A stretch of DNA of 64,000 nt from Terriglobus aquaticus (GTDB taxonomy: Bacteria > Acidobacteriota > Terriglobia > Terriglobales > Acidobacteriaceae): positions 868,001 to 932,000 of the forward strand of contig NZ_JAGSYB010000001.1 of the NCBI RefSeq assembly GCF_025685415.1, given 5' to 3'. The stretch's first letter is position 1, and the number at the start of each line of letters is the position of its first letter. The notes under the pieces were generated by a model. It saw nothing but the letters and a program-made list of their open reading frames with translations, was not told where the DNA came from and did not search any database. Made by a program: the position numbers and the translations under genes. This document shows, piece by piece, positions 48,828 to 64,000 of the stretch.

Positions 48828-50084
48828 TTATCCGCGCAAGCCATCCGCCAGCGAAGTCCGATACGCACGCCAGGCAGGAACAAGCCCGACTACGGCCGAG
48901 AGTGCAATGGTTGCTGCGCCGTAGAGCAGTACGCGTTGCGATGGCCTGGTGATCATCAGCGGGATCCCCGTTGCACGCTCCACCGCGCCATGCGCCAGTA
49001 ACAGACCGACGTATACCGCGACAAATCCGAGCACCGTCGCGACGGTCGCAATCACAACTGCCTCCGCCACAAACAGCAGCAGGATCTGTGAGCTTGGCAT
49101 GCCCACCGCTCGCAGGATCGCTACTTCGTGACGCCGCTCGTTCACGGCGGTGTACAGCGCGACCAGCATCGTCAACAGGCCGACCACCAGCACCGCCGCG
49201 CTCACCAAGGACAGCGCCTCGTCCGCGTAGTCCAGCAGCACCCAGAGCTCCTGCAGCGTGTAGGCCGGGATGATCGCGGAGAGCGGCTCGGGCTTGTAGG
49301 TGTTGATCTCGCGCTGCAGGTATAGCGTGCTCATGCGCGACCGCGCTCCCAGCAGAAACGACGTGATCTGATCCACATGCAGCTGGCTCACGTCCAGCTT
49401 GGGCGCCGCCTCGCCGATAGCGGGTGGCGTTCCGCCTTCCCATCCGAAGTGCATGGCTTCTTCGCCCAGTAGCGTGATGAACACGGATCGATCGATCGGA
49501 GTTCCCGTTTGTGCAAGCACGCCGGCGACGGTGAACGGCGTCGCATCGTGTTTCAGAATGGACCGCTCCTCGATGCCGTGCGACAGCGTCAGCCTATCGC
49601 CCAAGCCCAAGTGCAACTGGTTCGCCACAGATGCGCCGAGCGTGGCTTCGAAGATGCTTTGGGGCGAGTGCCCAGTAGCGAAGCTCAGACTGTGATCGCC
49701 GCGATACTTATAATGCGCGTACAGGTTGTCGTCCGTTGCGATCACGCGGAAGCCGTGGAACGAATCGCCCATGCTGATCGGGATCGTCCACGCGACTGCA
49801 GGGTGATGGGCAAAGTGCTCGTAGCTCTGCCAGGAGATGTTGTTGGATGCCGTGCCCACGTGAAAGATCGTGGACAAGAGCAGAGGCAGCTCGCCACCGC
49901 GTGCACCCACAACCAAGTCTGTATGTGAGACAGTGCCCGCAAAGCCGGCCTTGGTGCCGGCGCGCAACGCATCCACTGCGGTCAGCAACGCGATCGACAG
50001 AGCGATGGAGCACACCGTCAGCGTGGTTGTCAGCGCGCGCGAACGCAGCGACGCCAGCGCCAGCCTAAGCAGCCGCACGGCCAC
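48828..50084 (-). CDS. FtsX/MacB-like ABC transporter permease
   Basis: A 418-residue permease with one N-terminal helix (about 16-38), a roughly 220-residue periplasmic domain, and three C-terminal helices (about 285-405) containing ERRHEVAILRAVGM, the typical FtsX motif. It overlaps the ATPase gene by 20 bases. The family handles lipoproteins, metals or peptides by mechanotransmission rather than classical import. With the DUF3299 protein it forms a three-gene operon; the cargo is not visible. Confidence 0.9.
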   Translation of the reverse strand: MAVRLLRLALASLRSRALTTTLTVCSIALSIALLTAVDALRAGTKAGFAGTVSHTDLVVGARGGELPLLLSTIFHVGTASNNISWQSYEHFAHHPAVAWTIPISMGDSFHGFRVIATDDNLYAHYKYRGDHSLSFATGHSPQSIFEATLGASVANQLHLGLGDRLTLSHGIEERSILKHDATPFTVAGVLAQTGTPIDRSVFITLLGEEAMHFGWEGGTPPAIGEAAPKLDVSQLHVDQITSFLLGARSRMSTLYLQREINTYKPEPLSAIIPAYTLQELWVLLDYADEALSLVSAAVLVVGLLTMLVALYTAVNERRHEVAILRAVGMPSSQILLLFVAEAVVIATVATVLGFVAVYVGLLLAHGAVERATGIPLMITRPSQRVLLYGAATIALSAVVGLVPAWRAYRTSLADGLRG

Positions 50085-50832
50085 CCTCCGGTTGCGATGC
50101 CTGGTTGATCTCCGACAGGCTCAGCGTTCTGCTGAAGTGCGATGCCAGACCCATGTCATGCGACACATACAGCAGCGTCGTCGCGTTTCCTTGCTGCCGC
50201 GCTTCTTCGACCATCTCCAGCAGCAGCGCGACAAATTCATCGCGCCGGTTCGCATCCAGCGAACTCGTCGGCTCGTCCGCAATCAGCAGCGCGGGGTAGC
50301 CGATCAGCGCGCGCGCAATCGCCACGCGCTGCTGCTGGCCTACGGACAGGGTGCTCGGTCTTTCGTCCAGAAGCGCGGAGATGTCGAGCCGCTGTGCAAG
50401 GCGTTCTACCTCGGCATGTAGCGAGCCCTCACGCATGTGGCGCAGCCGTTCGCGATACAGCTCGCACGGCAGCAAGATGTTCTGCCGAACCGAAAGATAA
50501 GGGATCAAATTGAAACTCTGAAACACATAACCCATGCGGCTGCCGCGAACACGGTCGCGCGTGGCGGCGGAAGCTTTGTCAAAGGCCTGGTCGAGCACCT
50601 GCACGGTACCGGCAGTCGATTGCAGCACACCGGCAACCAGCGACAGCAGTGTGCTCTTGCCGCTGCCCGAGGGGCCATACAGAAAGACACTCTCGCCCAG
50701 GCCGATCCGCAGCTCCGGAATTCGCAGCACCGGCTCGCGCTTGCCGTAGCGAAACACCACATCCCGCAGCAGCACTGCATCTCGGACGCGTGAAGGCGAA
50801 AGGTCGCCTTGTAATTCCGCGTCACTGCTCAT
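50065..50832 (-). CDS. LolD/MacB-like ABC ATPase
   Basis: A 255-residue ATPase with GPSGSGKSTLLSLVAG (Walker A), YVFQSFNLIPYL (Q-loop), STLSVGQQQRVAIARAL (signature; Val replaces the second Ser-Gly position seen in most), LLIADEPTSSLD (Walker B) and YVSHDMGLA (switch His). It belongs to the type VII ABC group paired with FtsX-like permeases. It overlaps both neighbours, so the operon is translationally coupled. Confidence 0.92.
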   Translation of the reverse strand: MSSDAELQGDLSPSRVRDAVLLRDVVFRYGKREPVLRIPELRIGLGESVFLYGPSGSGKSTLLSLVAGVLQSTAGTVQVLDQAFDKASAATRDRVRGSRMGYVFQSFNLIPYLSVRQNILLPCELYRERLRHMREGSLHAEVERLAQRLDISALLDERPSTLSVGQQQRVAIARALIGYPALLIADEPTSSLDANRRDEFVALLLEMVEEARQQGNATTLLYVSHDMGLASHFSRTLSLSEINQASQPEGGRAAA

Positions 50833-51283
50833 ACGGCTTCACGGAGTCGCCATCCATATTGAACGACACATCGCCATACGGGCTCTGGACCGTGCTCACA
50901 TGTAATTGGCCGGACACGATGATGGGCTGCGTAAAGCTCATGGCTGCCTTTTTGCCGCCGCGCAACTTCACATAGACCATCTGGTTGGGTGGAGGTGGCG
51001 GAACGTGAATGCATGCACCGGAGAACGGCACCAGCAGGAACTCCGTGACCTGCTCGGCATCATCCTCCAGCGGCACCATGAAGCCGGGGATCGCAACCGT
51101 CTTGCGATCCAGCGCCTTGGCGGGTGAAGGCTTCGCGTCGGCCGTCAGCGTCTTCAACGTCGACCACGACACCTGGGGCACGCCGGCCGTGGGTGTCGCC
51201 GCGCGTGCTGCGCCGCCCTGCAATGAAAACGATGCCAGCAGGAGCATGCTGCATGCGATACCTTTTGGGCGTATCCGCTTCAT
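50822..51283 (-). CDS. DUF3299-containing exported protein
   Basis: A 153-residue protein with a signal peptide (SMLLLASFSLQGGAARA). The mature part carries VAIPGFMVPLEDDAEQVTEF and VPFSGACIHVPPPPPNQMVY, the signature of DUF3299 with its conserved Cys and His. The gene overlaps the LolD-like ATPase gene by 11 bases. DUF3299 proteins recur next to this kind of ABC pair, and a periplasmic metal-related role has been suggested for similar clusters; the Cys-Ile-His motif is compatible, but nothing here proves it. Confidence 0.85.
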   Translation of the reverse strand: MKRIRPKGIACSMLLLASFSLQGGAARAATPTAGVPQVSWSTLKTLTADAKPSPAKALDRKTVAIPGFMVPLEDDAEQVTEFLLVPFSGACIHVPPPPPNQMVYVKLRGGKKAAMSFTQPIIVSGQLHVSTVQSPYGDVSFNMDGDSVKPYEQ

Positions 51284-51375: not shown

Positions 51376-52818
51376 CTACTTCTTCGGGATCGCCTTGTCC
51401 TGCACCTGCGGCGGCGCGTTCACCGGCGTCGAGGTGGGGAACCGCTGTCCGCGAGTGGCGCCAAAGGGCCGTTCGCTGAACACTGTCCAACGCCTCGCCT
51501 GCCGCTCGTCCGCGCTGTGCTTCGTAGCGTCCCACATGTCTGCGGAAAGACCGTTCAGGTCGTACACGATCTTGCCGTCTTTCACGGTCATCTGACACAC
51601 CAGCTTCTGTGTGCCCATCATCTTGGTGTTGTACATATCCACGAACCCGAAGTTGCCGTGATCGACGGATAGCACAGCCACGTCGGCAATGCCGCCGACG
51701 GAGAGGTTGCCGTACTGCTCCTGCCGGATCTCATGCGCCGGATGCGAGGTCATCTGCGCGATCACTTCTGGGACCGTCTCGCCCAGCACCAGCAGCTTGT
51801 CTGCCACGTTCAGCAGGTCCTTCATTCCATTGTTCATCGACCCAACGTGCAGGTCGGTCGAGATGGAATCCGGCTTGTAGCCTGACGCTACGATCGGCTT
51901 CGCTACCGTCCAGGCAAAGCTGCCGCCCCCGTGGCCCACGTCGCAGTAAATGCCACGCTGCCGCATGACCAGCAACGCTTTGGACGGGCCGCCGGTCTGC
52001 GGGTCCTGCTCGTTGCGCAGACCGCTGAAGCAGTGGGTGTAGATGTCGCTGGGGCGCAGATGGCTCTCGACCAATTGCAGCAGGGGACGCTCAATGCGGT
52101 TCGCACCAAAGTCGATCATCACAGGGATGTGCGCGATGTCCTCGGCGATCTGCGCTTGGTCGTACGGCTTCCATTCCGGCCCGGTGAAGTGCGCGCTTTT
52201 GATGCCGACGATCACGCCCGGAAATTTCAGCGCCTTTTCGCCGGTCAGCTTGCCGTCCATGTCGTCCAGGTTGTCTTCGTACTTGGCGCCACGCATGCCC
52301 GAGCCGACGATGTTCAGTTCGGCGAGAACGCGGGTGCGGCTGCGGTCGATGATGCGGTCTTTGAAGTCGTCGAAGTTGCGCCAGCCAGAGCTGCCCGCGT
52401 CCACGATCGTGGTCACGCCATTGCGCAGCGTAAAGCCATCGGGCATCACAGACAGGTCGCCGGCGTAGGAGTTCTTCTCGCCGGTACCGGTGTACACGTG
52501 CGTGTGCAGGTCGATGAGGCCGGGCGTGATGTAGTAGCCCTGGACATCAACAGTCTTCAGCGCGTCCTTCGGATTCAGGTGTGCGCCTATGGCGGCGATC
52601 TTGCCGTCCTTGATGCCAACATCGCCACTCATGTCGACGTGGTTCTTGTCATCCAGCACGTGGCCATTAGTCAGGAGGAGATCGTAGGGCAGGGGATTCG
52701 GCGGCAGAGCCGGACCGCGAACCGGGCCTTCCTGCGCTCGCACCGCCGCAGCGCTCAACAGCAGCGCTGCACACATCCACTTGCCAACCACGCCACACAC
52801 CGAACGCATCAAGCTCAC
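51376..52818 (-). CDS. Exported amidohydrolase/deacetylase-family metallohydrolase
   Basis: A 480-residue amidohydrolase with a Sec signal (WMCAALLLSAAAVRAQ). Metal-site residues are visible in LIDLHTHVY (His105, His107), GIKSAHFTG (Lys), IYTHCFSG, DVGHGGGSF and the Asp of STDLHVG. It belongs to the COG3964 branch, whose cytoplasmic members occur beside DgaE-type ammonia-lyases and are thought to deacylate or open amide rings. Here it follows an exported DgaE/SelA-like enzyme by 58 bases, and both are exported. Substrate unknown; an N-acyl or cyclic amide of an amino acid or amino-sugar acid is a reasonable guess. Confidence 0.85.
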   Translation of the reverse strand: MSLMRSVCGVVGKWMCAALLLSAAAVRAQEGPVRGPALPPNPLPYDLLLTNGHVLDDKNHVDMSGDVGIKDGKIAAIGAHLNPKDALKTVDVQGYYITPGLIDLHTHVYTGTGEKNSYAGDLSVMPDGFTLRNGVTTIVDAGSSGWRNFDDFKDRIIDRSRTRVLAELNIVGSGMRGAKYEDNLDDMDGKLTGEKALKFPGVIVGIKSAHFTGPEWKPYDQAQIAEDIAHIPVMIDFGANRIERPLLQLVESHLRPSDIYTHCFSGLRNEQDPQTGGPSKALLVMRQRGIYCDVGHGGGSFAWTVAKPIVASGYKPDSISTDLHVGSMNNGMKDLLNVADKLLVLGETVPEVIAQMTSHPAHEIRQEQYGNLSVGGIADVAVLSVDHGNFGFVDMYNTKMMGTQKLVCQMTVKDGKIVYDLNGLSADMWDATKHSADERQARRWTVFSERPFGATRGQRFPTSTPVNAPPQVQDKAIPKK

Positions 52819-52876
52819 TCCCAGTTCTGTCTCTTACCGTTCTACGCCTTTGCCTTGGGCCTTTGCAGGCGACGCG

Positions 52877-54514
52877 TTACGCCCGCGTCGCCGTGAAGGT
52901 CGCCTTGCCGTACTCACCCAGGTTCACGTCGCCGGAGAAGGTGTTGCCGCTCACCGCCCCGCTGAAACTAAAGCGCACATCCTGCCCGTTCGCCTTCATC
53001 ACCGAGTTCAGGAAGGCGTGATCGCCCTTCACCTCGCCCGCGATCTTCGTGGTGTAGATCTCGCCCTTCTGCTCGCCGGTGATCTTATCGCCCTGCTGCT
53101 GCAGCGTGAAGACCTGATGGCCCACACCCAGGTTGTAATGAACCTCCACGTTCCAGCGGCCGTCCAGCTTGGCCGCCGGTCCGCCGTACACGGGCACCTT
53201 CGGCACCTCGCCCGGGTTCTTCAGGTAGTGAGCGATCGTCTCCGCCACCACCTTGTACTCACCTGGCTGCAGCATGTACGGCATGATGCCGACGGACGAT
53301 TCCATGTGGTCCGGCCGCATGCCCGACCCGCCATCCACCAAGATGCGGGGCGTGCCCTTGTCCAGCTTCTCCACCAGCTCGGTGCCGGTGATGCCTACCT
53401 TGCTGCCGTCCCACTTGATGCGCAGCGTTGGCGCGCGGTTCGACAGATCTTCGGACGGCATCTTGATTTCGGTCGTCACGGTCGGAATGCTCTTGACCGC
53501 GTCGGCGATGGCCTGGTCCCACTGCAGCCACTGCTTCTGCTCGGCGTCGTGATCGCGCTTGTACCACATGCGCACAGCGGCCAGCATACCCATGGCTTCT
53601 TCCTTGCCCACCTTCAGCGCGCGGCCCCAGTTGTGGTGCGGCGCAGCGTTCCAGAACGCGGCGGCGACCAGATCCTTGGGCCCCAGCAGAACGCCGGCAG
53701 TCTGCGGCCCACGCATGCACTTGCCGCCCGAGTAGCCAACGAATGTTGCGCCCGCGGCCAGGTGAATGTTAGGCACGACAGGCTCTTCAGCGGCGGCATC
53801 CACAAACACCGGCACGCCTTTTTCCTTCGCAATCGCGCACACTGTCTTGACCGACAGCGGCTCCTGGAACATGCGTGGACCGGAGTACAGGTAGATCATG
53901 GCGGTGCGCTCGCTCAGCTTCGAGCGCAGCTCGTCGTCGCTCTCCACCTCCACAATTTCAGGGCCCGACATGCGCGTGCCGAAGTCGTACGGGTTGCGCG
54001 AATACTTCGGGATAATCACCTGGTCCTTCTTGCGGATGTAGGGAAACGCCTGCGACTCTTCGGGATCGGTGCCGCACATGCAGGCAACCGTGGCGAGTGC
54101 AATGGCCGCTTCGCAGCCGCAGGTGACGATAGCCGAAGGCGCACCCATCAGCTTCGCGATCTCCGATCCCACGGCAGGCATCAACTCGTCCAGGTGAACG
54201 TAGTAGCGCGAAGCCTCAAACATCGCCTGCTTCACCTCCGGCAGCGACTGTGAGCCGGTGATGATGGTGAACGTGCCACGCGCGTTGATGATGGGCCGCA
54301 CGCCGATCTGCGTGTACAGGTTGTCGGTCGGCGTTCCTTTCGCCGTCAGCGTAGTGACGGTTTGTGGCTCCACCACTCCGCCGCTCTGCGCATCCATGGC
54401 AATGGGCGCGAGCATCGCCGTGGCGGAAAAGATGCCGGAGTTCTTCAGCATCTGGCGGCGCGACAGGCGCCCTGCAGTAAGACCGTTGACCAAGGACACG
54501 CGAAGACTCCTCAT
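52877..54514 (-). CDS. Tat-exported SelA/DgaE-like PLP enzyme with extra C-terminal domain
   Basis: A 545-residue fold-type I PLP protein. The N-terminus has GRLSRRQMLKNSG, a twin-arginine signal (Arg19-Arg20), and a hydrophobic stretch ending near AMDAQ. The PLP domain covers about 65-440: TCGCEAAIALATVA, FVDAAAEE with Asp239 for the pyridine nitrogen, and YSGGKCMRGPQTAG with the Schiff-base Lys265. Relatives are D-glucosaminate-6-phosphate ammonia-lyase and SelA. About 100 residues (440-545) after the family's usual end form a beta-rich domain (LDGRWNVEVHYNLGVGHQVF). Tat export suits an enzyme that folds round PLP in the cytoplasm. Reaction unknown, probably amine elimination. Confidence 0.85.
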   Translation of the reverse strand: MRSLRVSLVNGLTAGRLSRRQMLKNSGIFSATAMLAPIAMDAQSGGVVEPQTVTTLTAKGTPTDNLYTQIGVRPIINARGTFTIITGSQSLPEVKQAMFEASRYYVHLDELMPAVGSEIAKLMGAPSAIVTCGCEAAIALATVACMCGTDPEESQAFPYIRKKDQVIIPKYSRNPYDFGTRMSGPEIVEVESDDELRSKLSERTAMIYLYSGPRMFQEPLSVKTVCAIAKEKGVPVFVDAAAEEPVVPNIHLAAGATFVGYSGGKCMRGPQTAGVLLGPKDLVAAAFWNAAPHHNWGRALKVGKEEAMGMLAAVRMWYKRDHDAEQKQWLQWDQAIADAVKSIPTVTTEIKMPSEDLSNRAPTLRIKWDGSKVGITGTELVEKLDKGTPRILVDGGSGMRPDHMESSVGIMPYMLQPGEYKVVAETIAHYLKNPGEVPKVPVYGGPAAKLDGRWNVEVHYNLGVGHQVFTLQQQGDKITGEQKGEIYTTKIAGEVKGDHAFLNSVMKANGQDVRFSFSGAVSGNTFSGDVNLGEYGKATFTATRA

Positions 54515-54543
54515 CTTTCTTCATGAATGCAGCGGGAAAGCAT

Positions 54544-54573
54544 GAACCCTGCCGGCACATACCCGCAGGGTTC
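54544..54573 (-). other. Intercistronic hairpin between RidA and PLP-enzyme genes
   Basis: GAACCCTGC (54544-54552) and GCAGGGTTC (54565-54573) form a perfect 9-bp stem, starting 8 bases past the RidA stop on the minus strand. It lacks a T-tract and lies inside the operon, so mRNA processing or stabilisation is more likely than full termination. Confidence 0.5.
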
Positions 54574-54580
54574 CTGAACA

Positions 54581-55093
54581 CTACAGGGCAGCGATACAGT
54601 CGATCTCGACGAGCGAATCGCCGGGTACGCCGTTGACGACAGCGACGGTAGTGCGAACCGGCGGCTCCGCACCGAAGCGTCCCAGGAACACCGAATTCAT
54701 GCGTTGGTAGTTCGCCAGGTCGCTCAGGTACACGTTAACCTTTAGAACCTTCTCCATCGACGAGCCAGCGGCCTTCAGGTTCTCTTCCAGCTCATCCAGG
54801 ACGTGCTTGGTGTGCTCTTCAATGGTGCCCTTGAAGTGCGCTCCCACCCCGGCCAGAAATACCAGGTTGCCAAAGGTGACGATGCTGTTGAACAGCGGCG
54901 GCTTCGCAGCCGAGGGGGCAGGCTTCTGGTCCTGGGCCGAGGCCGGCGGTCCGCCCTTGTGCACAATCTTCTTGATCCACTCCACGTTGGGGGACTGCGC
55001 CTCGGCACTTGGCTCAACCTTCGCCATGGCTGCTACGCCGGCGGTTGCCGCCGCTGCGCCTTTCAACAGATTCCTGCGGCTCTGCTTCTGCAT
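54581..55093 (-). CDS. Tat-exported RidA-family protein
   Basis: A 170-residue protein starting at ATG 55093 behind GAGGGAGCGAGCACC. It has QSRRNLLKGAAAATAG, a textbook twin-arginine signal (Arg6-Arg7), and a mature RidA domain from about residue 65. The catalytic Arg of RidA corresponds to Arg147 in PPVRTTVAV and the Glu to Glu163 in VEIDCIAAL. RidA hydrolyses reactive enamines/imines such as 2-aminoacrylate produced by PLP lyases. Its position between two exported PLP enzymes suggests it clears their imine products in the periplasm. About 130 residues is usual; the excess is signal plus a Pro/Ala linker. Confidence 0.9.
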   Translation of the reverse strand: MQKQSRRNLLKGAAAATAGVAAMAKVEPSAEAQSPNVEWIKKIVHKGGPPASAQDQKPAPSAAKPPLFNSIVTFGNLVFLAGVGAHFKGTIEEHTKHVLDELEENLKAAGSSMEKVLKVNVYLSDLANYQRMNSVFLGRFGAEPPVRTTVAVVNGVPGDSLVEIDCIAAL

Positions 55094-55137
55094 GGTGCTC
55101 GCTCCCTCTAGGTTGCGTGATCGTTTTGCGGTTGAGT

Positions 55138-56499
55138 TCAGGCCTTCGTCGGTTGGCTGTTTCCAAGCAGGGCAGTGCGCAATGCTCTGCCCACCACTCT
55201 GTCTTCGCCGGGCTGCAGCATCCACACGCCCACCACTAAGGTATTCGCGTCGGACGGGATACCCTGGTTCGCGGGCCGGCAACTGTTCGGGTTTAACTCG
55301 ATCGACGGTGTTCCTGCGCGCACGGCTGTGAGCACCGCTGACGCAGGCACCCGCGACACCGCCGGGTCCACGCGAACGAGCAGGTGCGGCACGTGGTTCG
55401 CGATGTGGGGGGTCACTGTTTCTGTGCGGACTCCAGGCAGGCCGCGCAGCGTCGACGCAATCAGGTCGGCGCGCTCCTGGTAGTTGCCCTGCATCTGCTC
55501 TTCCGTATGCGACAGGACCCAGTCGACCGCCGCAACCATGCCGACAATCTGTTCCTTCGCCACCTTCATGCCTCGGCACACACCATCGTTGGGATTGTTG
55601 TTGGCGTGCGCCAGGTCGGTCAATCGCTTCTTGCCCAGCAAGACACCGGCGTTCTGTGGACCGCGGATGCCTTTACCGCCGGAGAACGAGACCAGGTCGA
55701 ACCCCATGCCGGTGTACTTCCACAGGTTTGAGATTGGCGGCATGTCTGCCGCGGCGTCGATGTGGCACGGAATCCCGTAATCGTGCGCCACGCGCAGCCA
55801 TTCCTCGCGGCCGATCTGGGCCGGACCTTCCGGGCCAATCTCATCTTCGGCGGCGTTGAAGAAGTTCGTCATCACCGCATCGCCTGCACCGCAGGCGCGC
55901 TTGTAGTCGTCCATGGTCAGTACTTCGGTGATGCGAGCGCCCGGCGTGAAGATCGCGTGATCGTAGCCGTAGCGATGCGCCCGCTGCACGATCACCTGCT
56001 TCTTCGCGGTGCCAAGATTTTGCGGCATATCTGTAATCTGCAGCTTCGGGTTCGCCGCCTGCAAACAGGCTGCCGTCGCCAGCGTGATTGCGCTGCTGGC
56101 TCCGCAGGTAACCACCGCACCTTCGCACCGCAGCCGCTGCGCAAGGTACTCGCCGGCCTTCTGCTGCAGGTCGTGCAACCTGACCGGGTGCAGTGCCGCC
56201 ACGCGAACGGCTTCGACCACCTCGGGCGGCATGCACGCCGCGGTCAACGCCGTGTATGTTCCAGCGGCGTTAATGATCTTTGTGACTCCGAGCTCGTCGT
56301 AGTAATCCACGCCGGCGGGCGCAATGGCTGCAGCAGGCGCGGTCTGCGCCGCTGCACCTGCTGACCTGAGCGAAGCGGCTAGGGCGCCAAGCGCGCCCAC
56401 AAAGCCGCGCCGCGTTACCGGGTGCAAACGAAATGACGGGAACGAACGCACAGTGGTCCAACCTGACAATTCGGGGAAGAAACGAGCGGCCGGCCGCAT
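55138..56499 (-). CDS. Second exported SelA/DgaE-like PLP enzyme
   Basis: A 453-residue protein. A twin-arginine-like PVTRRGFVGALGALAAS lies at about residues 28-44; GTG at 56451 (residue 17) would place it closer to the N-terminus and may be the true start. The PLP domain has TCGASSAITLATAACL, CHIDAAADMPP (Asp248) and SFSGGKGIRGPQNAG with the Schiff-base Lys276. It lacks the extra C-terminal domain of the first enzyme. The pair may act on two epimers or sequential substrates, or form a mixed oligomer; the sequence does not tell. It is 44 bases upstream of the RidA gene. Confidence 0.83.
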   Translation of the reverse strand: MRPAARFFPELSGWTTVRSFPSFRLHPVTRRGFVGALGALAASLRSAGAAAQTAPAAAIAPAGVDYYDELGVTKIINAAGTYTALTAACMPPEVVEAVRVAALHPVRLHDLQQKAGEYLAQRLRCEGAVVTCGASSAITLATAACLQAANPKLQITDMPQNLGTAKKQVIVQRAHRYGYDHAIFTPGARITEVLTMDDYKRACGAGDAVMTNFFNAAEDEIGPEGPAQIGREEWLRVAHDYGIPCHIDAAADMPPISNLWKYTGMGFDLVSFSGGKGIRGPQNAGVLLGKKRLTDLAHANNNPNDGVCRGMKVAKEQIVGMVAAVDWVLSHTEEQMQGNYQERADLIASTLRGLPGVRTETVTPHIANHVPHLLVRVDPAVSRVPASAVLTAVRAGTPSIELNPNSCRPANQGIPSDANTLVVGVWMLQPGEDRVVGRALRTALLGNSQPTKA

Positions 56500-56521
56500 G
56501 GGCAGACAAACCGCTCAAGGC

Positions 56522-56541
56522 AAAAGGCTGTTACGCCTTTG
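56522..56541 (-). other. Small intercistronic hairpin
   Basis: AAAGGC and GCCTTT pair over a 6-base loop in the 147-base gap between the RraA-like gene and the second PLP-enzyme gene, upstream of the latter. Function unknown; weak. Confidence 0.3.
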
Positions 56542-56646
56542 TAATCGAAGCGAGGGAACCCTTGCACAGGGCATCTGTCCTAGTTGGCCAGATAACCCCG
56601 GACAGTCCCCCGACACGGACAACTCTCGCCCGGAAAAGCGCCGCCG

Positions 56647-57411
56647 CTAGATCCGCCCGAACTGCTTCACCGCTTCCACGATCGAGTGGAACTTTTCGAT
56701 GTACGGGTACATGCTGTGTTCGCTGAAGTCGAGCTGCTGCGCCTTCACCAGAATTTCTGCCGCGTGCGACCGCGGCACAACTACCACGCCGTCCTGGTCG
56801 GCCACGATGATGTCGTTTGCTTCCACGTGCGTGCCCGCTACGTCCAGCGGGATGTTCTTGCCGCCGAACCGATAGTGCCCCACGGATGTGGAAGGCACCG
56901 GCCCCGTCGCAAACACAGGGAAGCCGATCTTCGTCAGTTGTGGGATATCGCGCACACCACCGTCGACCACCGCGCCGGTAAAGCCGCGATTGAACATCGC
57001 CGTGCCCATCAGTCCACCCATGCCCGCGATGTCCGCTCCGTCTTCCACCTTCATCACGTACACCGAACCCGGACCGCCGCTATCGATCGCCTCCAGCATG
57101 CCGCTCAACGCGTTTGGATCCTTGTTCTCTTCTTTCTTCAGCAGCACCGTCAGCGCAACGCCCGCAAACTTCGCCGGGAAGATCGCGCGCTCGGTGTGGC
57201 TCATGTAGTGCTTCTCATGCAGGATCTGCTCTTCCGCATCGCTCACGGACGCGGCCTCCACATGCTTGTACGCGTCCAGCATGCGCGGCAGGTCCTTCGC
57301 ATAGTCCGCCGCGGTCAGCGGAGTGTCCGCGTGCAGCGCCACCGTTCCAGCAGCCGCCAGCAACACTGCCGCGCTCAGGCACGCCCACGTCATCGATCGC
57401 ACGTTCTTCAA
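56647..57411 (-). CDS. Exported RraA-family protein (aldolase/decarboxylase-like)
   Basis: A 254-residue protein with a Sec signal (WACLSAAVLLAAAGTVALHA). The RraA/HMG-aldolase fold signature is clear: GGLMGTAMFNRGFTGAVVDG at about 132-151, directly followed by GVRDI with the Arg-Asp pair (154-155) that binds the pyruvate end of the substrate and metal. Enzymes of this family cleave 4-hydroxy-2-oxo acids or decarboxylate oxaloacetate; RraA itself only inhibits RNase E. An exported member next to exported PLP enzymes could process the 2-oxo acid that deamination gives. About 40 residues precede the usual domain start. Confidence 0.85.
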   Translation of the reverse strand: MKNVRSMTWACLSAAVLLAAAGTVALHADTPLTAADYAKDLPRMLDAYKHVEAASVSDAEEQILHEKHYMSHTERAIFPAKFAGVALTVLLKKEENKDPNALSGMLEAIDSGGPGSVYVMKVEDGADIAGMGGLMGTAMFNRGFTGAVVDGGVRDIPQLTKIGFPVFATGPVPSTSVGHYRFGGKNIPLDVAGTHVEANDIIVADQDGVVVVPRSHAAEILVKAQQLDFSEHSMYPYIEKFHSIVEAVKQFGRI

Positions 57412-57466
57412 AGCTCTACCTCAAACCTTTCAGTCGCAACCATGCTCGCACAACACCCTCAGAAAC

Positions 57467-57503
57467 GGTTCAGCCGCCATCGTAAGCGGAGGGCGGCTGA
57501 ACC
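57467..57503 (-). terminator. 12-bp hairpin between TonB receptor and RraA-like genes
   Basis: GGTTCAGCCGCC (57467-57478) pairs exactly with GGCGGCTGAACC (57492-57503), 23 bases past the receptor stop on the minus strand, with only GTTTCT after it. It may partly terminate transcription so that receptor mRNA exceeds enzyme mRNA. Confidence 0.6.
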
Positions 57504-57526
57504 AGTTCGACGTGTAAAGAACGCGT

Positions 57527-60500
57527 TTAGAAGTTGATCTTGCCCGCCAGTTGCAGCGTGCGTGGCGTGTAGCCGGTGGCTGTGCTGGTGATCGTACCGA
57601 AGTTCGAACTGGCGAAGTTCGGCGTCGTCGAGAGCACACCGTTTACCGGCGCAAACGCATTGGGTAGCGTCGCGTTCGGGTTGCCGGGGTTGGAGGAGTT
57701 GAACAGGTTGAACGTCTCGGCGCGCAACTGGATCTTCAGCCGCTCATAGATCTGGAAATCCTTGAACAGCGAGAAGTTCACGTTGCGGAATCCGGGTCCT
57801 TTCAGGTCGTTGCGGTGCAGGTTGCCAAAAGTACCAGCCAGCGGGATGGAATACGCCGAACGATCAATGCAGGTTGTTCCGTTGATGCGGGTACCGATGC
57901 CGCAGTTCGCCGTACCGATCTTTACGGCGTTCGGTCGCTGGGTTCCAATGCCGAGGACGTGCGCGCGATCATCGCTGATCGACACGTTGAACGGGATGCC
58001 GCTTTGCAATGTCACGATCGCGTTTGCGTGCCATCCGCCTAGCAGCGAGTTGCCGATCGAGCCAAACTTGTGGAAGTCCGGCATAGCGTATGTCACGGTT
58101 CCCACGAAACGGTTGCGGATATCCCAGTTCGAGTTGCCGTAATCCGCGCGCAGGTTGTTCTGGATCATAGCCGTACCGCCGCCATTGGCGTCGTTGGACG
58201 TGTCCATGTTGTGCGCCCACGTGTAACCGATCTGCGCATCCAACCCCTTGTAGGTGCGCTGGCGGAAGATTGCGGTCAGGCCGTGGTATGTGGAAAAGCT
58301 GTCGTTGTTGATCGAACGAATCTGACCGAACAACTGATAGGGACGGTTCGCATTGCTGGTCGCCCCTACTGCTGGGGCCGGCTGGTTCGGGTAGTACGAG
58401 CGATCCAGGTAGATGCCCTTGGAGCCCAGGTACTGCAGTTCAAACGCGCCGCCGTTCCACAGCTCCACACCGGTGTCGGCATTCCACTGATACAGGCGTG
58501 GTGTGGGCAGGTACTTGTTGTCCGTGAACGCACTCACGTACGTTCCGGGAATGCCCGCGATCGCTGGCCCAGTAGACTGGCCGCCGGTGGGGTTCGCAAA
58601 CGTCAGGTTGCCGGTCGCGCTGTTGTTGCGCGTGTACACCACCGAAGCCGCAAGCGGGAAGTTGGTCGACGCCAGCGTGAAGGCATTCATGTGATTCGGG
58701 TTGTAGTAAATGCCGCCGCCGCCGCGGAAGACAATTTTTTCATTTGCGCGGTAAGCAACGCCCAGGCGCGGCGAGACCAGGTTCAGGTTCGAGTCGTGGA
58801 ACTTGAAGCCGGGCGTGGGAACGAAAGTCGCGCCGGTTGTCGCGTTGCTGGTCGGAATGAGCGCCGTGTAGCTGGAGTTCAGAATGCGGGCGTAACCGTT
58901 CAGCGAGTAGGGAACCAGCGGCAGTTCATAGCGCACGCCATACTGAACCGTCAGCTTCTGGCTAGCCTGCCAGTTGTCCTGGATGAAGAAGCCGTTGCGC
59001 CACTCGGCTACGGAACCCTTCACCTGGAAGACCGGCGTCGTGGTCTGGAACACATAGCCCGCGATGAAGTCTGCTGCCGCGTCACCCGTCACGCCACCGT
59101 TGAAGTTGAATTGTCCGCGCGGCGTGTTGCCCGCGGCACGGCCGATGGACATCTTGCGAATGTCTGCGCCAGCCATCACGTTGTGTTTGCCGAACATGTA
59201 ACTGATCTGGTCGTAGCCGTGCAGAGTGCGGTCGTCCTGGAACCAGTTCGTACCTTCCGCACCAAAGCCCTGGTAGGTGCCGATTAGCACTGTCGGAATA
59301 CCGGGGTTGTTGTTTGCGGTGTCTGCGTTGAATCCCGGGATGCCCAGGTTGGTTCCGGCCTGGGTCAGGCCGTTGTTATAGAAGTAGTTCAGCGTGTTCG
59401 AGTTGAAGCGGTTGAAACCGAGCCGCAGGTCGTTGATCAGCCTTGGGGTGATCAGGTAAGTGAGACCCAGAACGCCGTTGCGGTTGCGGGTGGGCGTGGT
59501 ACTGCCGGAGGTGGCAACAATGTTGCCATTTACACCGTCAATCTTTTGCCAATCGTAACGGCCGAAAATGCGCAGCTTCTCGCTGAATGCATAGTCCACG
59601 CGATCCAACGTCTGGTCCTGGTTGAATTGCGTCGCCACGTTCTGAGTGATGTTGTTTGTGTTGCCGCCCACGGTTGGATTCGCGTAGTACTGCAGGAATC
59701 TCGTTGCAAACGGCGAAACCGGAACCTGGTTATTCGGGTAGGGCTGGCCAGTCGCCGGGTTGGTCAACGGCTTGCCAAGACTGGAGAAGTCGCCGTTGCG
59801 GAAGGCCGTTGGAATCAACGTCGCGACGACCGGGCTCTGCTGATTCGAACGAATGCCTTCGTACGATCCCATGAAGAACAGCTTGTCCTTGAGGATGGGA
59901 CCGCCGATCTCGCCGCCAAATTGGTTGAAGCGCACACGCGGCTTGGCCTGGGTCGGGCTGGCGAGGAAGCTGCGCGCATTGAACGCATCGTTCTGCACGT
60001 AATCGAACACCGTTCCGTGGAACTGGTTCGTTCCGGCCTTGGTGTCCACGTTGATGTGAACGCCCATGTAGGCGCCGTACTGCGCGGTGTAGTTGCCAGT
60101 CTGGGTCTGCACTGCGCCCACCGCGTCCGCGTTCGGCGTCACGGGCGAGCTGGAGATCAGCGAGTTCATGATCGTGATGCCGTCCAGCGTCAGCGAATTC
60201 GTCACTTCGCGCGTACCGGCGCCGATGAAGTTGGCTCCCGGCGGTGTTCCGGTATAACTGGTTTTGGGTCCGACGATGATGCTCGGGTTGGTCGCCGCCA
60301 ACTCCAGCACACGGCGCCCGGCGATGGGCAGGTTGGCTACCTGATCCGCGCGCAGAGTTTCGCCAACCACAGCATCGTCCGTCGAAAGGGCGGGGGTGTC
60401 CGCGCTCACGGTCACCTCGGTCGACTCGCTGCCTGCCTTCAGCTCCACGTCCGTACGCACGGCCAGGTTCAGCGTTACCAGCACGCCGCTGGCCAGGGTC

Positions 60501-60760
60501 CTGCTGTAGCCGGACTTCTCCACGGTCACGTCGTAGGTTCCTGGCTGCACGAACTGGATGTTGTAGAACCCTCCGTTGTTGGTCGTGCCGGGGTACGCGA
60601 CCTTGGTGGCGCGATCGACGGCGACTACCTTGGCACCCGCGACCACGCCGCCGCTGGCGTCGGTTACGGTTCCAACCAGGGCGGTATTGTTGGCGACCTG
60701 CGCACTACACGCAGAAACGGCGAGCAGGACCGGGATGCTGCGAAGAAATTTGTGGTTCAC
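57527..60760 (-). CDS. TonB-dependent receptor of the exported-enzyme operon
   Basis: A 1077-residue receptor starting at GTG 60760 behind AAGGAAGTTTCC. The signal peptide ends near SACSAQ. A CarboxypepD_reg-like domain (ALVGTVTDASGGVVAGAKVV) precedes the plug (LPIAGRRVLELAATNPSI, NSLTLDGITIMNS) and a barrel; the C-terminus reads LQLAGKINF with terminal Phe. It lies between the response-regulator gene and the exported enzymes, and so should bring their substrate into the periplasm. A 26-base palindrome lies 138 bases before its start. Confidence 0.9.
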   Translation of the reverse strand: MNHKFLRSIPVLLAVSACSAQVANNTALVGTVTDASGGVVAGAKVVAVDRATKVAYPGTTNNGGFYNIQFVQPGTYDVTVEKSGYSRTLASGVLVTLNLAVRTDVELKAGSESTEVTVSADTPALSTDDAVVGETLRADQVANLPIAGRRVLELAATNPSIIVGPKTSYTGTPPGANFIGAGTREVTNSLTLDGITIMNSLISSSPVTPNADAVGAVQTQTGNYTAQYGAYMGVHINVDTKAGTNQFHGTVFDYVQNDAFNARSFLASPTQAKPRVRFNQFGGEIGGPILKDKLFFMGSYEGIRSNQQSPVVATLIPTAFRNGDFSSLGKPLTNPATGQPYPNNQVPVSPFATRFLQYYANPTVGGNTNNITQNVATQFNQDQTLDRVDYAFSEKLRIFGRYDWQKIDGVNGNIVATSGSTTPTRNRNGVLGLTYLITPRLINDLRLGFNRFNSNTLNYFYNNGLTQAGTNLGIPGFNADTANNNPGIPTVLIGTYQGFGAEGTNWFQDDRTLHGYDQISYMFGKHNVMAGADIRKMSIGRAAGNTPRGQFNFNGGVTGDAAADFIAGYVFQTTTPVFQVKGSVAEWRNGFFIQDNWQASQKLTVQYGVRYELPLVPYSLNGYARILNSSYTALIPTSNATTGATFVPTPGFKFHDSNLNLVSPRLGVAYRANEKIVFRGGGGIYYNPNHMNAFTLASTNFPLAASVVYTRNNSATGNLTFANPTGGQSTGPAIAGIPGTYVSAFTDNKYLPTPRLYQWNADTGVELWNGGAFELQYLGSKGIYLDRSYYPNQPAPAVGATSNANRPYQLFGQIRSINNDSFSTYHGLTAIFRQRTYKGLDAQIGYTWAHNMDTSNDANGGGTAMIQNNLRADYGNSNWDIRNRFVGTVTYAMPDFHKFGSIGNSLLGGWHANAIVTLQSGIPFNVSISDDRAHVLGIGTQRPNAVKIGTANCGIGTRINGTTCIDRSAYSIPLAGTFGNLHRNDLKGPGFRNVNFSLFKDFQIYERLKIQLRAETFNLFNSSNPGNPNATLPNAFAPVNGVLSTTPNFASSNFGTITSTATGYTPRTLQLAGKINF

Positions 60761-60897
60761 GGAAACTTCCTTTCAGCGCAAGTCGTCTCTTGAACGCGAA
60801 GTCTTCTCGCGCCGCAATGAGCGATTCTGCGGTGTCGTACGGATACCGCAATGTCACCTGAATTTCACGCCGCTGTCATCGGCCCCATGCCCCGCCT

Positions 60898-60923
60898 CGT
60901 TGTAGGTCATATGGCCTACAACG
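60898..60923. promoter_or_regulatory. 26-bp near-perfect palindrome, candidate operator
   Basis: CGTTGTAGG at 60898-60906 and CCTACAACG at 60915-60923 are exact reverse complements, with the self-complementary CATATG in the centre; only one base pair (T907/G914) breaks the symmetry. It lies between the response-regulator stop and the TonB receptor start, with no T-tract on either side, so an activator or repressor site for the receptor operon is more likely than a terminator. Confidence 0.65.
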
Positions 60924-60939
60924 ACGCTCCTGCTGAAAC

Positions 60940-61647
60940 CTATGCGGGATCCAGGTGCACCAGGCCGCGCTGCAAGGCGTAGATCGTCGCCTGTGTGCGA
61001 TCCCGCGCTCCTAGTTTGTCGAGCACCGCACTTACGTGAATCCTCACTGTTTTCTCGGCAATGCCGAGCTCTTCCGCAATCTCGCGATTGGAAAAGCCGC
61101 GCGTCACGCATTGCAGCACCTGCGATTCGCGTGGTGTGAGCGATACGCCGGGCATGCGCTCCGCCAACCGGTGCAGCGCGACCTGTGGCAGGTAACGGGT
61201 CCCACGATGCACGCTCTGTAGCGCCTGGATCACCTGCTCACCGCTGGCGTCTTTCGCCAGGTAGCCCATGGCACCAGCCTGCATCGCGCGATAGATGTCT
61301 TCCGAGCCCTGGTAGTTCGACAAGACTACGATGCGCGCACGGTATTGCTCGCGTAGCCGACTAATCACCTCAAAGCCGCTCATCTGCGGCAGCCGCAGAT
61401 CCAGCACCACTACGTCCGGCCGCAAGAGGGCGTACTGCTCAATGCCCGTTTCGCCGTCCGGCGCTTCGCCCACAATCTGGATGGAGCTGTGCTTCGACAG
61501 TACGGAGTGCAACGCCATGCGCGCCAGGAAATGATCCTCCACCAGGAGAACGCGAATGGAGTTCTTCGCGGTGTTCGCCTTTTGCGCCGTGGTGGCGTGA
61601 TCGAGGTCATTGCCTCCCGAATGCGATCGTCCATTCCACATCGTCAT
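60940..61647 (-). CDS. NarL/LuxR-family response regulator
   Basis: About 235 residues from ATG 61647, which has AGGAG five bases upstream and lies 11 bases after the kinase stop; ATG at 61674 would overlap the kinase gene. The receiver domain has VLLVEDHFLARM, VVVLDLRLPQMSG with the phospho-acceptor Asp, LSNYQGS and AKDASGEQV. The LuxR-type helix-turn-helix reads LTPRESQVLQCVTRGFSNRE and then IAEELGIAEKTVRIHVS. It should be activated by the adjacent Y_Y_Y kinase and control the TonB-receptor operon, possibly through the palindrome just downstream. Confidence 0.9.
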   Translation of the reverse strand: MTMWNGRSHSGGNDLDHATTAQKANTAKNSIRVLLVEDHFLARMALHSVLSKHSSIQIVGEAPDGETGIEQYALLRPDVVVLDLRLPQMSGFEVISRLREQYRARIVVLSNYQGSEDIYRAMQAGAMGYLAKDASGEQVIQALQSVHRGTRYLPQVALHRLAERMPGVSLTPRESQVLQCVTRGFSNREIAEELGIAEKTVRIHVSAVLDKLGARDRTQATIYALQRGLVHLDPA

Positions 61648-61658
61648 CTCTGCTCCTG

Positions 61659-62849
61659 TCACACACCGATCCATCGAACCACGGCGGGCTGCTGCACCGA
61701 GGGTTGCTGAATCCCTCGAAACTTGACAGTGACCACCACCTCGGTTCCTTTGTTGACGGCGCTCGTCAGCCGCAGTTGTCCACCCAATTTGCGGGTACGT
61801 TCTTCCATAACGGAGATGCCGAAGTGCCCGGCGCGCACCTGCCGGTCCTGCACCACGAAGCCGCAGCCATCATCGCGCACGCTCAGCGATAACGAATCTG
61901 CGCTGTACTCCAACTCCACCTGAATTGACGACCCTCCCGCATGCCGCAGCGCGTTCGTCATCGCCTCCTGACCGATGCAGGTGAGGTGGTGCACTGCTGA
62001 CGGCGACAGGTTTACTTCTTCGCCCACCACGGTCAGCGAGGCCTGCAGGTCGTCACGCATGCGGTGCGCATCCATGGCATCCGCTAATGACTCCGACAGC
62101 AGATTCGTAATGCGGTCGGAGTTGCGCAGGTCCCAAATGATGCGTCGCGCCTCGGCCTGGCAGTGCCCCATCATGCTGCGCGCCAGTTCCAGCGACTGCA
62201 ATGCCTCGCGTTGCTCCGGCGCATCGTTGCTCATCTGCTGCGACGTAGCCTCTAACTGCCAGCTCACCGCCGCGAATCCGGCCATGAGCGTGTCATGGCA
62301 CTCGCTGGCGATGCGGTTGCGCTCGTCTAGCACCATGGCCATCTGCCCCTTCAGCAACTGGTCGCGTTGCCGCAGCAGTTGCACGCACACCGCGATCAGG
62401 AAGGCACAGACCATGACTGCCGCGTACCAGGTCTGGTAGAAGAACGGTTTCTGCACTACGTGCAATGTCGCCATCTGGGATGGCCACCCACCGCCCGGCA
62501 GCGCAGCCTGCACCTGAAACTGATAATCGCCCGGCGACAGCATCCAGAAGTGCGCCGAGCTGGAGCGCGTCTCCGTCCAGTCGTCGGATAATCCCGTCAG
62601 GCGGTATCGGAAGATCTGCGGCCGCAGCAGCGCCTGCTGTCCACCGCCGGCATGGAAAAACACAATCAGTTCCGGATGCCCGGGCTGCAATGTCAGTGTG
62701 TCTTTGCCAGACTCAGTTGGCGCCAGTTCACTACCAAACGACCAGCCATCGATGCTCGCCGCTCCCGGAGCATTACCCTGCGCATGCAGGCAGGGTAGTG
62801 CCTCCAGCGATAGCAGCAGCAATAACAGCGTTCGGACAAACCTGGTCAC
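61659..62849 (-). CDS. Y_Y_Y-domain sensor histidine kinase (HisKA_3)
   Basis: About 396 residues. GTG at 62849 starts a signal/anchor sequence (LLLLLLSLEALPCLHAQ); ATG at 62888 would overlap the transporter gene. The periplasmic part (about 25-150) is a Y_Y_Y-like beta-domain (FRYRLTGLSDDWTETRSS, LSPGDYQFQVQAAL). One helix near 155-175 leads to a dimerisation domain with ERNRIASECHDTLMAG (phospho-acceptor His) and an ATPase domain with EAMTNALRHAGG, RDDGCGF and GHFGISVMEERT. Unlike most Y_Y_Y kinases it has no beta-propeller. It probably senses a ligand of region 7. Confidence 0.88.
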   Translation of the reverse strand: MTRFVRTLLLLLLSLEALPCLHAQGNAPGAASIDGWSFGSELAPTESGKDTLTLQPGHPELIVFFHAGGGQQALLRPQIFRYRLTGLSDDWTETRSSSAHFWMLSPGDYQFQVQAALPGGGWPSQMATLHVVQKPFFYQTWYAAVMVCAFLIAVCVQLLRQRDQLLKGQMAMVLDERNRIASECHDTLMAGFAAVSWQLEATSQQMSNDAPEQREALQSLELARSMMGHCQAEARRIIWDLRNSDRITNLLSESLADAMDAHRMRDDLQASLTVVGEEVNLSPSAVHHLTCIGQEAMTNALRHAGGSSIQVELEYSADSLSLSVRDDGCGFVVQDRQVRAGHFGISVMEERTRKLGGQLRLTSAVNKGTEVVVTVKFRGIQQPSVQQPAVVRWIGV

Positions 62850-62856
62850 GGTGCAA

Positions 62857-64000
62857 TTAGCGCACCACACTCCCGGCAGGGTTGGCAAGGCTTCTCAGCT
62901 CTGGCATCGCTTCGGGAGCCGGATTTTCCAATGCGCGCTCAGGGTGCACGACGAACCAGCACAAAGCTCCGACAACCGCCATGACCGCCGCGACGCCGAA
63001 CGAACTGGTCCATCCAAATCGCTGCGCGATCCACGGCGTCAGCGATGCTGTCAACGCGCCGCCAAGCTGGCCGCCCATGTTGACCAGCGACGAGAACACG
63101 CCCGAACTCTTACCTGCGATGTCTACCGAAACCGACCAGAACGTGCTCTGCGACACGTACAGCGCACCTGCTCCACCGGCCAGGATAATGCCCGCAAACA
63201 CGGGGCTGGCCACTTGCGACCCAAGCACCAGGAACAGCGCAGTGACCAGCATGGCAGCCGAAGCGAGATAGCAGCGGCCCACACGCAAGCCGCGAGTGCT
63301 CGTGAGCCGGTCGCTGAGCACACCCCCAACCAAGCTGAAGATCGTCATGCACAGGAAGGGCAGCATTGCGTAGCGCGCACTCGACTTCAGGTCAAAGCCC
63401 CGCACCTGGGCCATGTAGAGAAAAAACCAGCTAAAGAACACCCACGCGATGTACCCGAAACTGAAATAGCCGACCATCAATGCGGCCAAATCTTTGCGGT
63501 GGAAGATCGCGCGCCAGGAGATGGTAGGTGCCTTTTCCTCGGCCCGTCCCTGCTGGGGCAAGTCGTACGACAGCCCCTCCTGGATCTCCTGCAACTCCTT
63601 GCGCGAAACACCCAGGTGTTGCTCCGGTGTGTCCCGCGCGAAGACCCACCAAACCGTTCCGGCGATCGCGCCCACGCCCGCACTGAACCAGAAGGCCGAG
63701 CGCCATCCGTGCTCGGTGATCATCCACGTGAGCAGCGGCGGGGTAAGGCCGCTACCCGCGCCGACGCCGGCAAAGATGAGGCCGTTGACAAAGCCGCGTT
63801 CGCGCTGCGGAACCCAGCGAGCAACAAATTGATTAGCCGCGGGATACACCACGGCCTCCCCTGCGCCCAAGAGAAACCGAATCGCGATCAGCCACAGCAA
63901 GGTGTGCGGGATTGTCGTCGGCAGCATCGCCGTGAGTGCCGTTGCGATGCACCACCACAGCACGCCCATGGTCAGCACCACGCGCGGACCGAAGCGCGCA
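62857..64000 (-). CDS. MFS transporter (anion:cation symporter-like), 5' end outside window
   Basis: The frame runs off the right edge of the window, reading ARFGPRVVLTMGVLWW at its visible start, which is the loop 2-3 motif of major facilitators; about 380 residues are visible. Helices such as LLWLIAIRFLLGAGEAVVYP and the RWVPQRERGFVNGLIFAG segment match the ACS group (hexuronate, glucarate and related organic-acid importers). It is the first visible gene of the region 7 transcription unit, with the kinase starting 7 bases after its stop. It could import the final carboxylate product of the periplasmic enzymes. Confidence 0.85.
   Translation of the reverse strand, partial: ARFGPRVVLTMGVLWWCIATALTAMLPTTIPHTLLWLIAIRFLLGAGEAVVYPAANQFVARWVPQRERGFVNGLIFAGVGAGSGLTPPLLTWMITEHGWRSAFWFSAGVGAIAGTVWWVFARDTPEQHLGVSRKELQEIQEGLSYDLPQQGRAEEKAPTISWRAIFHRKDLAALMVGYFSFGYIAWVFFSWFFLYMAQVRGFDLKSSARYAMLPFLCMTIFSLVGGVLSDRLTSTRGLRVGRCYLASAAMLVTALFLVLGSQVASPVFAGIILAGGAGALYVSQSTFWSVSVDIAGKSSGVFSSLVNMGGQLGGALTASLTPWIAQRFGWTSSFGVAAVMAVVGALCWFVVHPERALENPAPEAMPELRSLANPAGSVVR

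Follow-up and report, generated by a model that had tools for sequence, protein, structure and literature searches.

A conserved run of predicted exported PLP-dependent enzymes in Terriglobus aquaticus and a candidate periplasmic route for N-acetylhexosamines

DgaE, the D-glucosaminate-6-phosphate ammonia lyase, acts in the cytoplasm, and periplasmic direct oxidation converts glucose to gluconate and keto-gluconates. The pseudomonad proteins PvdN and PtaA are pyridoxal 5′-phosphate (PLP) enzymes that, according to an excerpt of PMC6206403, are moved folded and with their cofactor through the twin-arginine translocation (Tat) system to the periplasm. According to the excerpted text of PMC9299179, a Ralstonia N-acetyl-D-hexosamine oxidase prefers N-acetylglucosamine (GlcNAc) and N-acetylgalactosamine (GalNAc) and has an unclear role. 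Described here is a gene run in a 64,000-nucleotide stretch of the Terriglobus aquaticus genome (contig NZ_JAGSYB010000001.1, positions 868,001 to 932,000; hereafter the window) that encodes two DgaE/SelA-like PLP enzymes (PLP1 and PLP2), a RidA-family protein, an RraA-like protein and an amidohydrolase, all with predicted export signals. A first-pass annotation of the window had noted this run of exported enzymes, and the observation was confirmed. The cluster is proposed, as the somewhat favored reading, to encode the envelope portion of an oxidative pathway that handles N-acetylated hexosamines without phosphorylating them.

Predicted export and conservation of the enzyme set

The run comprises nine genes on the minus strand (51376–64000), encoding in order a major facilitator superfamily (MFS) transporter, a histidine kinase, a response regulator, an outer-membrane barrel, the RraA-like protein, PLP1, RidA, PLP2 and the amidohydrolase (Table 1). 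The open reading frames (ORFs) named in the first-pass annotation are real, all lying on this strand at or near the positions it had assigned. The N-termini of PLP1 (VTRRGF), PLP2 (LSRRQML) and RidA (QSRRNLL) are of Tat type, and those of the RraA-like protein and the amidohydrolase are of Sec type. Orthologues were scored with a motif-plus-hydrophobicity rule in sets that also draw on the window itself and, in part, on more than one locus per genome. The Tat rule is satisfied by 46 of 47 members of the PLP1 family (a set that takes in the window protein and paralogues of 28–40% identity), 24/24 of PLP2 and 28/29 of RidA, compared with 13 of 280 control ORFs from random regions. Because the orthologue segments were the up to 75 in-frame residues ahead of the domain, taken without a chosen start codon, orthologues and controls are not exactly comparable. 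One 36% PLP2 match and fragments or matches starting only at the domain were left out beforehand. Under a weaker rule, a hydrophobic N-terminus is present in 27/27 RraA-like proteins and 30/31 amidohydrolases and in 122/280 control ORFs. The claim that all five enzymes carry export signals is borne out by their orthologues.

A further collection, which overlaps the first, comprises 80 named loci; two of its PLP1 sequences are cut by contig ends, and 67 of the remaining 78 pass the Tat rule. An Arg-Arg pair is visible by eye in all 11 misses, several of which were shortened by the scoring window. Outside the family but within the phylum, 18 loci were scored: 13 pass, and four of the five misses show the pair by eye (L169 does not). 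In Granulicella tundricola, the annotated starts place the Tat motifs within the proteins, and a TatC gene is present in the T. aquaticus genome. The Tat-signal model PF10518 exceeds its cutoff for RidA only (22.9 bits, cutoff 22.7). Homologues read outside the phylum are leaderless and begin at the catalytic domain. Based on the twin-arginine motif and hydrophobic stretch kept in the orthologues, PLP1, PLP2 and RidA are predicted Tat substrates. An arrangement in which only the oxidized, deacetylated acid is made outside, the PLP and RidA leaders being inefficient or serving membrane attachment and deamination being mainly cytoplasmic, would be in keeping with leaders predicted from sequence, with the apparently leaderless oxidase discussed below and with a periplasm that receives its PLP through enzymes already carrying the cofactor when they pass through Tat. 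It is improbable, given the retention of the Tat motif in both collections relative to the controls, the leaderless state of homologues outside the phylum, and PvdN and PtaA, which show, as far as the excerpt describes them, that PLP enzymes are able to work after Tat export.

Conservation was followed in 40 PLP1 neighborhoods, hand-picked from 38 genomes of the same family and mostly representing best matches, with 20 regions at arbitrary places in related genomes as the control. The RraA-like protein, PLP1, RidA, PLP2 and the amidohydrolase occur all together within about 20 kb in 20 of the 40 neighborhoods, and at least four of the five in 25, counts that are not independent because many of the loci come from related genera. 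None of the five enzymes is found in any control region, whereas the outer-membrane barrel type is found in 4/20. The gene set, whose co-occurrence the first-pass annotation had proposed to check, is conserved together in relatives. The family sample has PLP1-family matches in 80 of its 300 genomes (among the matches listed), and, at a stricter limit of the PLP1 profile, a phylum sample has them in 38 of 347 genomes, 25 of these 38 lying outside the family. The same gene order is seen in Granulicella, Edaphobacter, Acidicapsa and others, and the cluster occurs in culturable, sequenced strains of Edaphobacter, Granulicella, Acidicapsa and Terriglobus. That these are ordinary, loosely linked exported enzymes with no common pathway would agree with the export of many enzymes by Acidobacteriota (illustrated by the control ORFs that pass the Tat rule) and with the absence of one or more of the five enzymes from the other 20 PLP1 loci; the co-occurrence of all five against none in the control regions, together with the shared gene order, makes this very improbable.

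Granulicella tundricola MP5ACTX9 carries the whole cluster on plasmid pACIX902 (NC_015065.1), which is typed as non-mobilizable. There, one strand encodes an alpha-L-fucosidase, GH125, the MFS transporter, kinase, regulator, barrel, RraA-like protein, PLP1, RidA, PLP2 and then the amidohydrolase, followed by a lactonase, a BBE oxidase, a hypothetical protein and a beta-galactosidase. By its predicted fucosidase, GH125 and beta-galactosidase genes, this setting resembles a glycan-use locus. In locus L040 (1963–5475), a second module with an MFS transporter, another Tat-type RidA, a third PLP paralogue (28–30% identical to PLP1) and an amidohydrolase lies beside the first, and the parts read of L050, L091 and L095 show the same arrangement. 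PLP1 relatives of 52–57% identity also occur in metagenome-assembled genomes labeled Alphaproteobacteria or Hyphomicrobiales (L135, L138 and L149), reflecting either mis-binning or transfer.

Enzyme families and clues to the substrate

By sequence, the nearest family of PLP1 and PLP2 is DgaE. Lys276 of PLP1 aligns, in the PLP1 profile alignment, with the DgaE lysine of structure 7lc0. Both proteins score under the curated cutoffs, with TIGR01437 values of 151.5 and 148.2 bits against a cutoff of 385.3 and NF047797 values of 132.7 and 112.1 bits against a cutoff of 600, and they are therefore termed DgaE-like rather than DgaE. The two enzymes may perhaps reflect gluco and galacto epimers of the substrate, or one complex. 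PLP2 carries an additional C-terminal domain of about 100 residues. This domain was considered as a mark of the exported protein and rejected, as homologues on rhizobial plasmids span it (query residues 65–544) and the one read is leaderless. That protein, from a Sinorhizobium plasmid (L211:5932–7536), is encoded in a phosphonate-type operon with a phosphoenolpyruvate mutase and a phosphocholine cytidylyltransferase-type gene. On a Haladaptatus plasmid (L210:5983–9345), a leaderless DgaE-like gene lies near a PIG-L deacetylase and a mannonate dehydratase, a group that is perhaps a cytoplasmic counterpart. In a search for such a cytoplasmic module on plasmids, no DgaE-like neighbor was found within 6 kb of the amidohydrolase matches in the Thermomicrobium, Mesorhizobium and Rhizobium regions.

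The RidA-family protein scores 70.5 bits with PF01042 (cutoff 27.3), and its Arg149, which we take to be the substrate-binding Arg of the family, is invariant in 12/12 members. In the amidohydrolase, which belongs to the cog3964/PRK09237 family, His105, His107, Lys207, His210, His262 and Asp322, presumably the metal-ligand pattern, are invariant in 16/16. In contrast to the first-pass statement that the catalytic residues of all families are intact, the RraA-like protein departs from its solved relative. Class II pyruvate aldolases of the RraA fold have the metal motif D-X20-R-D or G-X20-R-D-X2-E/D. In the RraA-like protein, a single-copy gene product in T. aquaticus, the position 21 residues before the Arg-Asp pair is Gly in all 12 aligned members versus the metal Asp of the aldolase 3noj, and the motif reads G-X20-R-D-X2-Q in 11 of the 12 and ends in Tyr in the remaining one, so that neither form of the class II motif is present. 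Most RraA-fold homologues hold one of two motifs, according to the excerpted part of PMC5065237. Assignment as a plain pyruvate aldolase is weakened by this motif, an intact aldolase site is not supported, and cleavage of the oxo acid in the periplasm by the RraA-like enzyme is therefore doubtful. The RraA-fold enzyme FlDet is a 2-keto-3-deoxy-glucarate dehydratase/decarboxylase (PMC8563752, in excerpt), which shows that 2-keto-3-deoxy sugar acids can also be handled by this fold in a different manner.

In relatives, an FAD/BBE oxidase is encoded beside the cluster in 11 of the 40 PLP1 loci and in none of the control regions. Its best solved structure is 7zzk, an N-acetyl-D-hexosamine oxidase (498.9 bits over residues 4–516 of 516; the next structure scores 271.2 bits). 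Exported seven-bladed lactonases, with mostly Tat-type and a few Sec-type leaders, lie beside the oxidase (LacA in 10/40 loci, LacB in 9/40, none in 20 controls). The PLP family is present in 36 of 38 oxidase genomes versus 80 of 300 overall, hand-counted among the matches listed (Fisher p 8e-22, kinship ignored), and for at least 26 of the 45 oxidase copies a PLP-family gene is no more than 20 kb away. In addition, seven locus entries, two of which are one contig, have a Tat-type PIG-L deacetylase in the vicinity of PLP1. The oxidase and lactonase neighbors point to N-acetylhexosamines oxidized at C1 as substrates, which narrows the amino-sugar acids that the first-pass annotation had listed among its candidates. 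A genuine periplasmic PLP pathway could instead act on a different substrate (an N-acyl amino acid or amino-sugar acid such as a hexosaminuronic acid, a muramic-acid derivative, a D-amino acid or a hydroxy-amino acid), the oxidase and lactonase genes of the relatives belonging to a separate sugar-acid function. The DgaE-like rather than DgaE identity of the PLP family, the distance of the oxidase from the cluster in T. aquaticus and its absence nearby in many loci (see below), and other sugar-acid genes in the loci (a mannonate dehydratase in L054; pyrroloquinoline quinone (PQQ) dehydrogenases and SMP-30 lactonases near PLP1 in other lineages) are compatible with this reading; the co-occurrence of oxidase and PLP family across genomes, their proximity and the recurrence of PIG-L deacetylases beside PLP1 argue the other way, and it is considered rather unlikely.

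A proposed periplasmic route

In the N-acetylhexosamine route proposed here, the outer-membrane barrel would take up a sugar or glycan fragment, and an N-acetylhexosamine oxidase, encoded elsewhere in this genome and adjoining the cluster in some relatives, would make the aldonolactone. An exported lactonase would open the lactone to N-acetyl-hexosaminate, and the exported amidohydrolase would strip its acetyl group. The two DgaE-like enzymes would acquire PLP in the cytoplasm and leave it in folded form through Tat; acting on the free 2-amino-3-hydroxy acid, they would catalyze the elimination of water. RidA would hydrolyze the resulting enamine or imine, giving 2-keto-3-deoxy-gluconate or -galactonate plus ammonia. 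The MFS carrier may then bring the keto-deoxy acid into the cell, where 2-keto-3-deoxygluconate (KDG) kinase and 2-keto-3-deoxy-6-phosphogluconate (KDPG) aldolase would complete its breakdown. The histidine kinase and response regulator would together sense a signal in the envelope. The gene order, families, leaders, clustering and neighboring families are observed; the substrate, every reaction and their order, and the specificity of the MFS carrier we infer. As the last stage of the route, import followed by the kinase and KDPG aldolase is at least as good as cleavage by the RraA-like protein: a KDG-kinase-like gene and a KDPG aldolase gene adjoin the cluster in 2/40 loci (L056 and L053) versus 0/20 controls, and T. 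aquaticus also holds such genes, beside a uronate isomerase gene. The route suggested in the first-pass annotation accordingly stands as regards the five exported and conserved enzymes together with barrel, MFS transporter and two-component system, and is doubtful as regards RraA aldolase cleavage.

Several observations weigh against this proposal. We know of no proof that the cog3964-type amidohydrolase family deacetylates an N-acetyl-hexosaminate. The PLP1 and PLP2 scores are far under the DgaE cutoffs, and DgaE, by its name, would use a phosphorylated substrate. The RraA-like protein lacks the class II metal motif, and the locus counts share the kinship noted above. The oxidase is not within the stretch read in 29/40 PLP1 loci, and two of the 38 oxidase genomes (G263 and G066) have no PLP-family match among the matches listed. 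In T. aquaticus itself, the oxidase (a 54% identical relative) belongs to a separate run with a lactonase and a barrel, at a distance of about 750 kb from the cluster. No leader was found on the oxidase in the 20 entries read, some of which are one gene fetched twice; the oxidase may therefore be cytoplasmic, which would break the topology of the pathway unless it is co-exported. The kinase and KDPG aldolase pair, being beside a uronate isomerase gene, may serve uronates. In addition, the genome has two NagA genes above cutoff and may thus also have a GlcNAc route in the cytoplasm. No NagB scores above the TIGR00502 cutoff in this genome (best 26.5 bits versus 236.9, at G000:C1:33590–34306), and two NagA genes without such a NagB neither demand nor exclude another GlcNAc route. 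Two stricter versions of the proposal were set aside: export of all route enzymes does not appear to extend to the oxidase, which showed no leader in the entries read, and a C1 oxidation step encoded in the window finds no oxidase or lactonase among the genes of the run, the copy in this genome being the distant one.

Surroundings of the run and comparison with known systems

The MFS transporter gene, the first of the run, extends beyond the window end, and a divergent alpha-L-fucosidase gene starts 348 bases beyond that end, upstream of the run. The MFS/kinase and kinase/regulator gene pairs overlap, and gaps of 45 to 180 bases separate the later genes (with the RidA start at the ATG at 55093). 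The sensor kinase has 409 residues, compared with a median of 1029, with a propeller-type sensor region, for its group in relatives; several relatives are short too. No plug domain was reported for the barrel in the domain profile search of the window proteins. After the amidohydrolase, at 48828–51283, lie a DUF3299 protein and an ATP-binding cassette (ABC) ATPase/permease pair, a trio that adjoins the amidohydrolase or MFS gene in several relatives (e.g., L035 and L045) for no evident reason.

Table 1 Features of the gene run in the window
Feature	Position	Strand	Profile evidence or residue
MFS transporter	62857..64000	-	PF07690 181.9 bits; TIGR00893 145.6 bits, under cutoff 395
Sensor histidine kinase, Y_Y_Y domain, short form without propeller	61659..62888	-	Profile search
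LuxR/NarL-type response regulator	60940..61674	-	PF00072, PF00196
Outer-membrane beta-barrel with CarboxypepD_reg, TonB-receptor-like	57527..60760	-	PF25183 680.5 bits
RraA-like protein, Sec-type leader or membrane anchor	56647..57411	-	PF03737 115.2 bits
PLP1, DgaE/SelA-like PLP enzyme, Tat leader TRRGF	55138..56499	-	TIGR01437, under cutoff; Lys276
RidA-family protein, Tat leader SRRNLLK	54581..55093	-	PF01042 and PF10518, both above cutoff
PLP2, DgaE/SelA-like PLP enzyme, Tat leader SRRQMLK	52877..54514	-	TIGR01437, under cutoff
cog3964-type amidohydrolase/deacetylase, Sec-type leader	51376..52818	-	NF006689 387.6 bits, cutoff 371

A periplasmic PLP-dependent breakdown route, or a cluster of this kind, was not found in the open-licence literature, which is weak evidence of absence. 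The first-pass view that periplasmic PLP catabolism is undescribed is narrowed by PvdN and PtaA, already periplasmic PLP enzymes in the excerpt cited above, so that only the catabolic use would be new; as a catabolic set, the enzymes described here look new. It is tentatively suggested that Acidobacteriota carry out HexNAc deacetylation and PLP-dependent deamination in the periplasm, importing a nitrogen-free keto-deoxy acid and ammonia rather than an amino sugar. If true, a whole PLP-requiring deamination pathway would run in the periplasm of common soil bacteria, altering both the site at which amino-sugar nitrogen is released and the way in which these cells obtain carbon from chitin and from fungal or plant glycans, and N-acetylhexosamine oxidase would gain its missing physiological role as a testable question.

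Relative to known systems, PLP1 and PLP2 share with DgaE (7lc0; TIGR01437, NF047797) the SelA-like PLP fold family, the aligned lysine and a proposed elimination from a 2-amino-3-hydroxy sugar acid. They differ in being two diverged copies with Tat leaders, under the family cutoffs, whereas DgaE has a phosphorylated substrate. PvdN and PtaA, in turn, serve pyoverdine tailoring and no degradation route in the excerpt available. The N-acetyl-D-hexosamine oxidase 7zzk is the closest solved structure to the cluster-adjoining oxidase of the relatives; where the excerpt of PMC9299179 leaves its role unclear, a candidate pathway is offered here. With cog3964/EF_0837-type amidohydrolases (2ogj, 8je0, 8wzy and 2ics), the amidohydrolase shares the family and the aligned metal-site residues, whereas two relatives read outside the phylum are leaderless and N-acetyl-aldonate is no established substrate. 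The RraA-like protein belongs to the fold family of the 4-hydroxy-4-methyl-2-oxoglutarate/4-carboxy-4-hydroxy-2-oxoadipate (HMG/CHA) aldolase 3noj and of FlDet, which uses a 2-keto-3-deoxy sugar acid (excerpt of PMC8563752), and differs in its predicted export and in the Gly that replaces the metal Asp. Finally, as in periplasmic glucose oxidation, sugar acids would be formed outside the inner membrane and then imported, with deacetylation and PLP-dependent deamination proposed to occur outside as well. The proposal would, in this sense, add deacetylation and deamination in the periplasm to the known oxidation of sugars there.

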